DNA of 64,000 nucleotides from Niabella drilacis (GTDB lineage: Bacteria; Bacteroidota; Bacteroidia; Chitinophagales; Chitinophagaceae). The notes below the pieces were generated by a model that worked only from the letters and a program-made list of their open reading frames with translations, made no database searches and was not told the origin of the DNA. The stretch lies in the NCBI RefSeq assembly GCF_900101395.1, contig NZ_FMZO01000001.1:248001-312000 (forward strand), given 5' to 3'. Both the position numbers and the translations under genes were made by a program. Shown piece by piece: positions 17,742-21,884 of the stretch (position 1 is the first letter of the stretch; each line of letters starts with the position of its first letter).

Positions 17742-18998
17742 TTATAAGAGGCCGGCGAGCTCCAGGCTTTTCTTTTTTAATTTCCGTTCTTCAATATCTT
17801 CAATGATCCCATCGGCTTCCACAATAAGGGACGTGCCGTTTTCTTTCCACCACGTGTTTTGCTTTAGTTTTTGTAAAGCGATCACCCCGGATAAATATTT
17901 ACGGCTTTCCTGTGCATGCCATTCCTCGATCCATTCAAAATCTTCTTTGGGAATATTGGCCAGGTCGGTAAAGCTTACAAATACTTTCAGGTAAATGGCA
18001 TCATTGAGCTGATGCGGTTTATGATGGTATAACTTTTTATATTCATACCGGTATTCATACCGTAAAGCAGAAATATCGCTCAGTACTGCGGATGCAGTTG
18101 GGAAGCTGCCCGCTCCCTTCCCGTAGAAGAATTGCTGGTCTGCAAACCCGCTCTCGATCACTACGCCATTGTATTCGTTCTTTACAAAGGACAGGGGACT
18201 GTCTGTATTTACAAACTGCGGCAGTACATAAGCGCCCACGCCGCCATTGATCAGCTTTTTGGCCTGTGCCACCAGTTTGATCTGTTGCCCGCGCGCCTTG
18301 GCCACCAGGGCATCTGATTTGGCAATGTTCTGGATACCGTTAAACAGTATATGATCCGGGTGCGCTACGATACCATAGGCATGCAGCAGCAGGATGGTCC
18401 ACTTGTTGAGGGCATCAAACCCTTCCACATCCAGCGTGGGGTCGCTTTCTGCAAAGCCCAGTTGCTGGGCCAGGAGCAGGGCATCTTTAAAGGACAGGTT
18501 CTCTTCAAAGATCTTGGTGAGTATAAAATTGGTACTTCCGTTTACAATAGCCCGGATGCTGTGGAGCAGGTCATTGTCGTAATATTCCTCCAGGTTGCGG
18601 ATCACGGGGATGGAAGCGCAGGCAGAGGATTCATACAGGAGTGATCTGCCGGTTGCCTGCTGCAGCTCCAGGAGCGCCGGCAGGTTTTCCGCGATCATTT
18701 TTTTGGACGAGCTTACCACATCCTTGCCATTCTTTAAAGCCGTGCTTACGATCTCAAAACCGGCCACGGCATCGTCAATCACTTCCACGATCAGGTTGAT
18801 GGCGGAATCGTTCAGCAATTCATTACGGTCGGTGGTGAACAGCGCTTCCGGCGCATTTCTTGTTTTGCCGGGATGCTTGATACATACTTTTTTTATGGAG
18901 GCCTTCAGGGAGGGGGTTTGCTGCAATACTTTATAAAGGCCTTCGCCTACCACACCAAATCCAAATAATCCGATCACTAATTCTTTATGTTCGCCCAT
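17742..18998 (-). CDS. hom: Homoserine dehydrogenase
   Basis: The 418-residue enzyme has an N-terminal Rossmann motif (IGLFGFGVVGEGLYKVL), a catalytic domain with GSTNFILTKI and SDPTLDVEGFDALNK, and the GAGSFPTASAVLSDI segment. It reduces aspartate semialdehyde to homoserine with NAD(P)H. No clear ACT domain is visible in the C-terminal part. It is the last gene of metY-metX-hom, 5 bp after metX, so homoserine supply and its conversion to methionine precursors are co-expressed. Confidence 0.93.
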   Translation of the reverse strand: MGEHKELVIGLFGFGVVGEGLYKVLQQTPSLKASIKKVCIKHPGKTRNAPEALFTTDRNELLNDSAINLIVEVIDDAVAGFEIVSTALKNGKDVVSSSKKMIAENLPALLELQQATGRSLLYESSACASIPVIRNLEEYYDNDLLHSIRAIVNGSTNFILTKIFEENLSFKDALLLAQQLGFAESDPTLDVEGFDALNKWTILLLHAYGIVAHPDHILFNGIQNIAKSDALVAKARGQQIKLVAQAKKLINGGVGAYVLPQFVNTDSPLSFVKNEYNGVVIESGFADQQFFYGKGAGSFPTASAVLSDISALRYEYRYEYKKLYHHKPHQLNDAIYLKVFVSFTDLANIPKEDFEWIEEWHAQESRKYLSGVIALQKLKQNTWWKENGTSLIVEADGIIEDIEERKLKKKSLELAGLL

Positions 18999-19003
18999 TG
19001 TTT

Positions 19004-20044
19004 TTATTTTAGCGCCACGCTTTCCGCATGGCGGGTTGTGAATTTTTTTATAGCTTCCGATATCTGTTCAAATTCCAGCAGAAAGCCGTCATGCCCATAA
19101 TCCGAGCGGATCAGTTTTTCTATGGCCCCGGGAATATGTTCGGCCAAAAATTCCTGTTCTTCCGGGGGAAACAGCACATCGCCTTCCAGTGCCAGCGCCA
19201 GGGTTTGGGCCCGGATCTGTTCCAGGGCTTTGATAACCCCGCCCCGGCCGCGGCCGAGATTGTGGCTGTCCATACTTTTGCTTAATGCATAGTAGCTGAA
19301 GGCATTGAAGCGCGCCGATAATTTTGTGCCCTGGTAACGCTGGTAGCTCTCGCTCCGGAAGGCCTCCAGCCGGTCATCAGAAGCTTCCGACTGCGTTTTG
19401 TTATACGCCGTAGCATTCCGATAGGAAAGCAGTGCAATACCCCGTGCTACCTCCATCCCTTTAAGCCCGGCACCCGGGCTTTTGGTTTGCCAGGTCTGAT
19501 CAGCTTCGATAGCAAAGCGCTGCGATGCATTAAAGGCCTTTCCCCAGGGGGAGTGAACCGCATTGGTAGCCAGGGGAATGATATATTCAAAGAGTCCGGG
19601 ATCCTGCACCGCCCATTCCAGTAATTGCTGGCCGCCGGTGCTGCCGCCGATACCGATCCTTATTTTCCGGATGCCCAGTTCTTTTTGCAGCAGCTGGTAA
19701 GCCCCGGCCATATCCCGGATCGTAAAGAAGGGGAAGTCGTGATAGTAGGGTTCACCGGTTGCCGGATCTTCATCCAGCGGGCTGCTGCTGCCATAGCAGC
19801 TCCCGGGCATGTTTACACAGATGATAAAATCTTTTGCCGGATCAAACACTTTTCCGGCCCCGATCATTTCGGGCCACCATTCATGCGGATTGCTGTTGGC
19901 CGTCAGCGCATGAAAGATCCAGACGATATTGTCCTGCGCTGCGTTTATGGTACCATAAGTAGTATAGGCCAGCCGCAGGTTCCGGAAAACGGTGCCGCTT
20001 TCCAACACAAAGGGCTCCGGATGTATAAATACTTCTTGTTGCAT
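19004..20044 (-). CDS. metX: Homoserine O-acetyltransferase MetX
   Basis: The 346-residue alpha/beta-hydrolase activates homoserine for sulfhydrylation. Its nucleophile elbow is GGSTGGQQ, with Asp in LEGDVLFPPEEQEFLAE and His in YGHDGFLLE completing the triad. The NIVWIFHALTANSNPHEWW and NMPGSCYGSSSPLDEDPATGEPY blocks are typical of the family. The gene lies between metY and hom, with a 38-bp near-perfect hairpin just before its start codon that may tune its translation. Confidence 0.93.
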   Translation of the reverse strand: MQQEVFIHPEPFVLESGTVFRNLRLAYTTYGTINAAQDNIVWIFHALTANSNPHEWWPEMIGAGKVFDPAKDFIICVNMPGSCYGSSSPLDEDPATGEPYYHDFPFFTIRDMAGAYQLLQKELGIRKIRIGIGGSTGGQQLLEWAVQDPGLFEYIIPLATNAVHSPWGKAFNASQRFAIEADQTWQTKSPGAGLKGMEVARGIALLSYRNATAYNKTQSEASDDRLEAFRSESYQRYQGTKLSARFNAFSYYALSKSMDSHNLGRGRGGVIKALEQIRAQTLALALEGDVLFPPEEQEFLAEHIPGAIEKLIRSDYGHDGFLLEFEQISEAIKKFTTRHAESVALK

Positions 20045-20094: not shown

Positions 20095-21414
<1,320 letters not shown>

Positions 21415-21506
21415 TCATGAATTTAATGAAGTGAAAAAAGATGTTGGAGTATGAAATTAAGGCCTGGTACAGACCCTTTGGGTGTAATTAAAGTAGAAGA
21501 TGCCTG

Positions 21507-21581
21507 CTAAGGCATACAGCAAATGCAGCAACACATTACAGGGGTAATGCAAGAGATCTTATATGTCGCGCTTTCATTCAT
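21507..21581 (-). CDS. Cys-rich leader peptide upstream of metY (24 aa)
   Basis: A 24-codon minus-strand ORF starts at 21581, about 7 nt beyond a promoter-like -7 element, and ends with TAG at 21507. Residues 16-23 read MCCCICCM, with another Cys at position 11, giving six Cys and three Met codons including the start. The stop codon lies in the loop of a hairpin, ATGCCT-TAGC-AGGCAT (21500-21515). This is the expected layout of a translational attenuator sensing charged tRNA-Cys (or tRNA-Met). It is too short for automatic gene calling. No ribosome binding site is possible if transcription starts where predicted, so it would be translated leaderless. Confidence 0.6.
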   Translation of the reverse strand: MNESATYKISCITPVMCCCICCMP

Positions 21582-21589
21582 GCAGACTA

Positions 21590-21621
21590 CGAATTTAGTA
21601 GAGTTTTGTTTCATATTCAAA
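21590..21621 (-). promoter_or_regulatory. Candidate promoter for Cys-rich leader ORF
   Basis: On the minus strand TTTG (21618-21621), a 20-nt spacer and TAAATTCG (21590-21597) match the Bacteroidota TTTG-N19-21-TAnnTTTG promoter with one mismatch. It would start transcription downstream of the SAM riboswitch terminator, at or just before the leader ORF's ATG. Confidence 0.5.
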
Positions 21622-21653
21622 AAAAATTAAGAGGCAGCAAAACGCCGGCGCAT

Positions 21654-21685
21654 AAAAAAAGCCCACCGGATAAACCAGATGAGCT
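21654..21685 (-). terminator. Riboswitch expression-platform terminator
   Basis: On the minus strand AGCTCATC (21678-21685) pairs with GGTGGGCT-type sequence (3' arm 21660-21669) around a TTTAT loop, with two G.U pairs and one bulge, followed by a run of T residues (21654-21660). It lies about 35 nt downstream of the SAM-I aptamer, as expected for a transcription-terminating riboswitch. Confidence 0.8.
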
Positions 21686-21720
21686 GTTCTATTAATAAGT
21701 TTAATATACTACTGATCCGA

Positions 21721-21824
21721 CTTATCTTCCTCCCGCTTTGCGGGAGCTGGAATTGGCACCTTGTTATCCTCATAACAGGTTGCCAAGGCTTCACAGGGCC
21801 AAACCCTCTGCCTTTCTTGATAAG
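21721..21824 (-). ncRNA. SAM-I (S-box) riboswitch aptamer
   Basis: Read on the minus strand, the region shows the S-box signature. P1 is CTTATC (21819-21824) pairing with GATAAG (21721-21726). Then come AAGAAAGGCAGAGGG, TTTGGCCCTGTGAAGCC, the invariant TTGGCAACC, a P3 stem (TGTTAT/ATAACA), AAGGTGCCAATTCC and a P4 hairpin CTCCCGCAAAGCGGGAG. SAM binding should stabilise the aptamer and promote the downstream terminator. It controls metY-metX-hom. An 86-codon frame across this region is incidental. Confidence 0.95.
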
Positions 21825-21884
21825 GTTTCCCGCTGTGGGCGGGAAAAATAAAAAAGAACTGTTGCTGTCCAAAACCGAACGGCG

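Follow-up and report, generated by a model that had tools for sequence, protein, structure and literature searches.

The window analysed here, a stretch of 64,000 nt from the genome of Niabella drilacis, raises a question about the control of metY: between a SAM riboswitch and this gene lies a short open reading frame (ORF) full of cysteine codons. Is this ORF a chance product of the leader, or does it read the supply of cysteine for the gene behind it? An earlier note on this DNA had proposed the latter, on the grounds of a Cys-codon run, a hairpin over the stop codon and an internal promoter. The features concerned are the following, in the order in which the minus strand is read.

21719..21826, minus strand: SAM-I riboswitch aptamer (Rfam RF00162, 93.2 bits)
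21654..21684, minus strand: apparent intrinsic terminator of the SAM riboswitch, GCTCATCTGG/TCCGGTGGGC and seven T, read by eye
21590..21621, minus strand: putative internal promoter TTTG-N20-TAAATTCG (TTTG 21621-21618, TAAATTCG 21597-21590)
21587..21601, minus strand: CTAC-N7-GTAG, an inverted repeat that overlaps the -7 element; candidate operator, from sequence reading
21507..21581, minus strand: leader ORF, 24 codons and stop, peptide MNESATYKISCITPVMCCCICCMP, read directly from the strand
21533..21550, minus strand: hairpin H0, GCATTAC-CCCT-GTAATGT, directly before the Cys cluster; family-wide signal modest
21516..21533, minus strand: Cys-codon cluster TGT TGC TGC ATT TGC TGT, from sequence reading
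21500..21515, minus strand: hairpin H1, ATGCCT-TAGC-AGGCAT, 6 bp, stop codon TAG (21509-21507) in the loop
21473..21483, minus strand: candidate antiterminator ACCC-AAA-GGGT, predicted pairing
21459..21477, minus strand: hairpin H2, AGGGTCTG-TAC-CAGGCCTT, candidate attenuator hairpin whose U tract is weak (4 T in 9 nt)
20095..21408, minus strand: metY, O-acetylhomoserine aminocarboxypropyltransferase (TIGR01326, 670.9 bits, cut-off 495.1)
19004..20044, minus strand: metX-like acyltransferase, downstream of metY (TIGR01392, 318.5 bits, below the cut-off of 500)
17742..18998, minus strand: homoserine dehydrogenase, downstream of the metX-like gene (NF004976, 289.2 bits, cut-off 205)

The leader therefore runs from the SAM-I riboswitch over its apparent terminator to TTTG-N20-TAAATTCG, the ORF, H1, a second hairpin region and metY. 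Read directly from the strand, the 24-codon Cys-rich ORF and its coordinates proved to be as the earlier note had them, and so did the stop codon in the loop of the 6-bp hairpin at 21500-21515. The ORF has six Cys, residues 16-23 read MCCCICCM, and its end is VMCCCICCMP. Further upstream the open frame takes in two more possible starts, ATG at 21614 (35 codons) and TTG at 21620 (37 codons); as this ATG lies upstream of the -7 element, it would be usable only when transcription has passed through the riboswitch. No known Rfam family reached its gathering score over 21390-21700, where the best of the sub-threshold matches had an E value of 0.74. The product of MetY is homocysteine, which can supply both methionine and cysteine. 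CysK is above its cut-off in the N. drilacis genome, and a 456-residue open frame there encodes another, cysKM-like protein, so another route to cysteine is probably available. The Cys pattern occurs at nine sites in this genome, and when the frames were read by eye only the one in the window was recognised as a leader ORF. The sole other exact CTAYTANNTTYGTAG site in the genome (G000:C20:3632-3646, L311) may be due to chance; the reversed pattern, used as a control, also finds one site.

A BLAST-like search of the relatives with the 35-residue peptide gave only weak and mixed matches, indicating that the peptide is too divergent for sequence search and that the comparison has to be based on the locus. 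MetY itself was sought directly, and was found at an E value of 1e-150 or better in 88 of 195 Chitinophagaceae genomes. The 450 nt upstream of each metY (less at five loci, only 94 nt at one of them) were scanned by an automatic rule under which 9 residues near the end of an upstream ORF must include at least 4 Cys; no ATG is demanded. Such an ORF precedes 39 of the 88 metY genes, as compared with 0.25 per 88 in dinucleotide shuffles; the reverse strand of the same stretches yields 6 of 88, above the shuffles. Ten leaders were added to the 39 by hand and one was dropped, giving a curated set of 49 and leaving 39 of the 88 family metY genes outside it. The additions comprise eight of the 11 with a score of 3 (G055, G070, G076, G085, G116, G120, G131 with another ORF, and G162) and two with a score of 2 (G045 and G134), while G102 and G177 were left out and G172 was the one dropped. 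Some were added for their hairpin-like end, and the set of 49 therefore favours H1.

The proposal in the earlier note depended on the Cys run and the ORF being conserved in related metY leaders, and they are: the automatically picked leaders span 24 genera and the curated ones 29. The reading frame is conserved as well. All 39 automatically picked leaders have an ATG 30-105 nt upstream from which the Cys frame is open (3 and 3 for the other two frames), as do 47 of the curated 49 (3 and 5); when only 60 nt free of stop codons are asked for, which is a weaker measure, the Cys frame qualifies in 38 of the 49 and the others in 8 and 21. The curated ORFs have a median length of 25 codons, in agreement with the 24-codon start in the window. 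Together with the hairpin and promoter described below, these features carry the leader through the comparison: the Cys leader before metY is a real, conserved element and not a product of chance. Two related leaders (L290 in G085, L292 in G162) have two Cys groups each, SCCC...GCSC and SCCC...GCCC, and a weak or absent H1. Upstream of metY at L284 (G086) there is a frame reading SCMPYG with a hairpin-like end and a single Cys, perhaps a decayed leader.

A degenerate motif was then scanned against the genome contigs of 84,980 species. All 41 sites were from Bacteroidota, among them Terrimonas ferruginea, T. ginsenosidimutans, Lacibacter luteus, L. cauensis, Flavisolibacter ginsengisoli and Foetidibacter luteolus; these sites overlap in part with the sampled family genomes, and one place may be counted twice, as L319 and L341 of a single assembly. 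Thirty-nine of them lie directly before metY, and the other two, followed by only 81 and 125 bases of sequence, are undecidable. In the 49 leaders Cys makes up 45.3% of a 10-codon span over the cluster, compared with 2.7% in the varied stretch that precedes it; the clusters use 164 TGT and 58 TGC codons, and the span holds 2 to 6 Cys at variable spacing. A Cys-rich cluster behind a varied N-terminal stretch, with no fixed spacing, suggests that it is the codons that matter rather than a folded peptide. Cys-rich regulatory uORFs connected with copper exist in other bacteria, and Cys runs could bind metal, so the nascent chain or the free peptide might itself bind a metal or sense redox state and arrest the ribosome. 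Given that the number and spacing of the Cys and the N-terminal part all vary, and that every decidable motif site precedes metY, we regard an action of the peptide itself as very unlikely.

The Cys codons abut a hairpin in most of the leaders. A stem counted as H1 when it had at least 4 pairs and began between -5 and +3 nt relative to the point where the last Cys codon ends; the final Cys of G127 sits within the hairpin and was disregarded when the cluster end was set for this count. It is present in 35 of the 39 automatically picked leaders, with a mean of -6.95 kcal/mol, and by this measure missing in 4; in the curated set, 43 of 49 have it and 6 lack it, and the mean over all 49 is -6.59 kcal/mol as compared with -0.71 in shuffles. 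The stop codon begins inside H1 in 30 of the 43. A 4-nt loop closes H1 in 35 of the 49 leaders, 30 of which are distinct, and among these GTAA (11), GCAA (10) and GTGA (1) indicate that a GNRA loop often includes UAA or UGA. For covariation, 30 rows (28 distinct) were aligned, leaving out five 4-nt-loop rows, including the window, that the aligner shifted by one column, and 14 rows with another loop or none. Compensatory changes, with both sides altered, are seen in 4 of the 6 H1 pairs (5 cells), the covariation score of 0.127 was reached by 0 of 500 shuffles, and the count of further pair types was equalled by 21 of 500; the rows had been chosen for having a hairpin, and the percentage paired is accordingly biased upward. 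Relative to the Cys codons, the frame that runs through this hairpin differs in G081, G096 and G158 (CRKA versus CMPQG), which argues that H1 is conserved as RNA. The hairpin H0 before the cluster was set aside as weak (mean -2.28 versus -1.20 in shuffles).

H1 could be a plain intrinsic terminator, or a stabiliser of the mRNA, with the ORF as a by-product, and in the window it is indeed terminator-like in a simple scan, as one of 3 such hairpins compared with 0.5 in shuffles. The 9 nt that follow H1 hold 3.98 T on average against a background of 3.43, however, and at least 6 T in only 7 of 43 leaders, and H1 was rejected as a terminator on this count. A by-product would also hardly keep an ATG in the Cys frame of every automatically picked leader, and we give this explanation very little credence.

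Where the transcript that carries the ORF would begin is indicated by TTTG-N20-TAAATTCG, which we take to be a Bacteroidota promoter of the -33/-7 type. The apparent terminator of the SAM riboswitch (missed by the simple terminator scan) lies upstream of it. Allowing at most one mismatch, TTTG-N18-21-TANNTTTG precedes the cluster in 32 of the 49 curated leaders, compared with 3.5% of shuffles, and in 27 of the 39 automatically picked ones. The -7 element and the ATG are separated by a median of 12 nt in 35 leaders and by 8 nt in the window, and the position of the promoter suggests a transcript start some 0-20 nt before the ATG. The earlier note had transcription starting at or beside the ATG and the ORF translated leaderless; the promoter-like element is conserved, but with this distance the transcript is probably near-leaderless rather than leaderless. 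Bacteroidota largely do without Shine-Dalgarno sequences. The inverted repeat CTAC-N7-GTAG over the -7 element looks like the operator of a regulator, and similar inverted repeats were read by eye in several relatives. CTAC-N7-GTAG also stands directly before metY at L243 and L297, in genomes without a Cys leader.

The neighbouring riboswitch has its own distribution. Of the 195 Chitinophagaceae genomes, 155 contain the SAM family, and the comparison uses the 150 loci that were listed. A MetY-like protein is encoded downstream in 115 of these 150 and neither type in 35; the 115 comprise 36 with MetY itself (>60% identity) and 79 with a distant, metZ-like relative. Among the listed loci a loose filter for a Cys-bearing ORF retained 24 of the 36 metY and 9 of the 79 metZ-like cases, and a check by eye recognised a leader of the window's type in 22 of the 36 and in none of the 9. 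An RNA model of the leader (R1, 12 training rows) was applied as well: of its best 30 family loci 29 lie directly before metY, or 17 of 18 without the training loci, with L204 as the exception. The window's own copy, at 25.7 bits and an E value of 0.013, is at the level of weak matches and outside the best 30. At ten R1 loci the leader sits between a metZ-like gene and metY, and at L199, also of the family, no SAM match was found in the fetched stretch. The element thus belongs to metY; its position between riboswitch and gene, as described in the earlier note, is right for the window, whereas a pairing with the SAM riboswitch is not what defines it. Judged from these loci, the SAM riboswitch is not needed for the Cys leader. 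The distribution suggests a division of labour within the same cluster, with SAM controlling the metZ-like enzyme and cysteine controlling MetY.

The element is, in our view, quite probably a ribosome-mediated attenuator by which metY responds to cysteine. Such attenuators are marked by a short leader ORF in which codons for the regulatory amino acid occur in a row, as they do here, and we infer translation of the leader, stalling, the direction of the response and the output step as follows. The promoter inside the leader, past the terminator of the SAM riboswitch, would start a short transcript whose first feature is the ORF of about 25 codons, ending in the Cys-codon run that abuts H1. With charged tRNA-Cys plentiful, the ribosome would pass the Cys codons into H1 and terminate at the stop codon, which H1 contains or adjoins, and the RNA further on would then fold into a state that keeps metY low. 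With charged tRNA-Cys scarce, it would stall on the Cys codons, an alternative fold would form downstream, and metY would be expressed. The conserved features are the ORF with its Cys run and frame, the hairpins, the promoter-like sequence and the position before metY; the sensing of charged tRNA-Cys that the earlier note had proposed is the part that we deduce from them.

Elements of this kind are known elsewhere. Cys leader peptides have been described in Actinobacteria, before cys operons and cbs (PMC1262725, 2005), and appear again in a survey of 2015 (PMC4633059) and as a Cys-codon uORF in a figure legend of PMC13236596. Leaderless polycysteine short ORFs of mycobacteria have been reported to be Cys-responsive attenuators (Canestrari et al. 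2020, as described in PMC9031893). The metY leader resembles these in being a short ORF with consecutive Cys codons, probably at or near the 5' end of the transcript, upstream of a sulfur/cysteine gene that it would regulate; it differs in phylum, in its gene, and in having a hairpin next to the Cys codons, in many cases with the stop inside. The Actinobacterial leaders share the Cys-codon runs near the stop and an unclear terminator, and the accessible text of PMC1262725 reports no conserved terminator hairpin for the mycobacterial ones, which sets them apart from the hairpin-bearing leader here. The uORFC-8-2 motif, predicted before cysS in Rhodobacterales, likewise joins a uORF with Cys codons to RNA structure and has been read as ribosome-mediated attenuation, but its first stem contains the two tandem Cys codons and it has a consensus terminator U run (PMC8632094); in the window the gene is metY and the Cys cluster precedes H1. 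The SAM-I riboswitch with its terminator (RF00162) occupies the same leader and also serves sulfur control, but as a ligand-binding aptamer upstream of the promoter. The Bacteroid-trp motif (RF01692), presumably a Trp attenuator, is among the candidate cis-regulatory RNAs listed for Bacteroidetes and has no match in the window. The SAM-V metY riboswitch of the literature is another kind of RNA. Among titles and opening lines of abstracts in the open-licence literature, no Cys leader in Bacteroidota or before metY was recognised; mycobacteria and Rhodobacterales have elements of this kind, and this lineage, target and architecture appear to be new to the literature searched. If the proposal is true, cysteine attenuation is no peculiarity of mycobacteria and serves one gene in a class of environmental bacteria, often beside a SAM riboswitch. 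The metY leader would then offer a conserved case, tractable at the bench, of ribosome position coupled to gene control in Bacteroidota.

Similar leaders were also read in other families of the class. Among 25 metY genes read there (counts without a shuffle comparison), 11 follow an ORF that satisfies the same Cys rule (4 or more in 9 residues towards the end) and 3 more an ORF with 3 Cys; the ten clear poly-Cys leaders outside Chitinophagaceae, excluding the doubtful L277, represent eight families. A phylum-wide R1 search of 395 genomes gave 13 matches besides L205, none with metY beside it, which reflects the model, because the metY-based comparison did find leaders in other families. Of the 25 metY loci, 19 were inspected for a hairpin with a T-rich tail behind the stop, and 7 have one, a count without shuffle control. 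The strongest of these, L262 (-13.5 kcal/mol) and L272 (-14.4 kcal/mol), are from the same family and have T-rich tails between the Cys/Met leader and metY; in L272 a second copy of the 5' arm, competing with it, was read by eye further upstream.

The Met codons beside the Cys codons may matter too, so that both sulfur amino acids would be sensed. Met runs occur in four other-family leaders (L256 CCMCMMRMCC, L258 CNCCMMMRMRC, L262 MMMCCCM and L272 MMCMCCCM), all without a SAM match in the fetched stretch. However, L260 has a Met run together with a SAM riboswitch and L199 has neither, and in the Chitinophagaceae clusters Met amounts to 6.7%, some of it from H1, compared with 7.4% in the preceding stretch; we think such a double signal unlikely. 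With mixed Met/Cys runs and terminator-like hairpins before metY, the leaders L256, L258, L262 and L272 may sense both. Somewhat short of an even chance, in our estimate, is the fullest form of the proposal: an ancient attenuator throughout the class Bacteroidia that senses cysteine, perhaps also methionine where there is no SAM aptamer, in which the Chitinophagaceae hairpin, often with the stop codon in a GNRA loop, would set the timing of ribosome and polymerase, and a separate promoter past the SAM terminator would give metY two independent inputs, SAM through the aptamer and cysteine through the ribosome.

The step at which the cysteine-responsive attenuator would act was sought in the RNA past H1. 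In the window, H2 shares an arm with the ACCC-AAA-GGGT hairpin, making the two mutually exclusive, and the pair resembles an antiterminator and a weak terminator in its predicted pairing. H2 is absent from the matches of the simple terminator scan of the window. The fold of the whole leader in the window is no better than its shuffles (z -1.05); for the part that holds H1 and H2 the advantage is slight (z -1.67, with 13 of 200 shuffles equally good). Across the family leaders the H2 energy exceeds that of shuffles in strength (-3.52 versus -1.47), and 3.58 of the next 9 nt are T versus 3.41 expected, with at least 6 T in 4 of 31. A single intrinsic terminator after H2 was rejected as a family-wide rule, the U tract being mostly absent.

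The hairpins were also scored as pairs in 69 leaders, 43 from the curated set and 26 further named ones. A mutually exclusive pair with a summed energy of -4 or below follows H1 in 28 of the 69, compared with 6.6% of shuffles, and 41 of the 69 have none at this threshold. The pair starts a median of 11 nt past H1, at 8-16 nt in 24 of the 28 (measured from GGCAT in the named rows), and the 9 nt after it hold 5.11 T, compared with 3.67 after shuffled pairs. We put the chances at about even that the output is through transcription, by two mutually exclusive hairpins, and favour this over translation or Rho-dependent termination. The same sensor might instead let the ribosome control initiation of metY translation or the access of Rho, with no intrinsic terminator involved. 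The mostly missing U tract of H2 fits such an output, as do the stretch past H1, which is rich in C and poor in G (23% C, 9.5% G; median C/G 2.5, as compared with 1.65 in 38 family leaders outside the set), and the short and fairly constant distance from the leader stop to metY (median 91 nt, 5-95% range 74-106, in the 49 leaders). For the mycobacterial Cys leaders, too, Rho has been proposed in the absence of conserved terminators, as far as the accessible part of PMC1262725 goes. The enrichment of exclusive hairpins over shuffles and the strong terminator-like hairpins of L262 and L272 speak against it, and we hold this other output to be possible, although rather unlikely. A ribosome terminating at the leader stop covers about 13 nt past its A site. 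With the stop codon in the H1 loop, it would open H1 and would hardly reach the candidate antiterminator.
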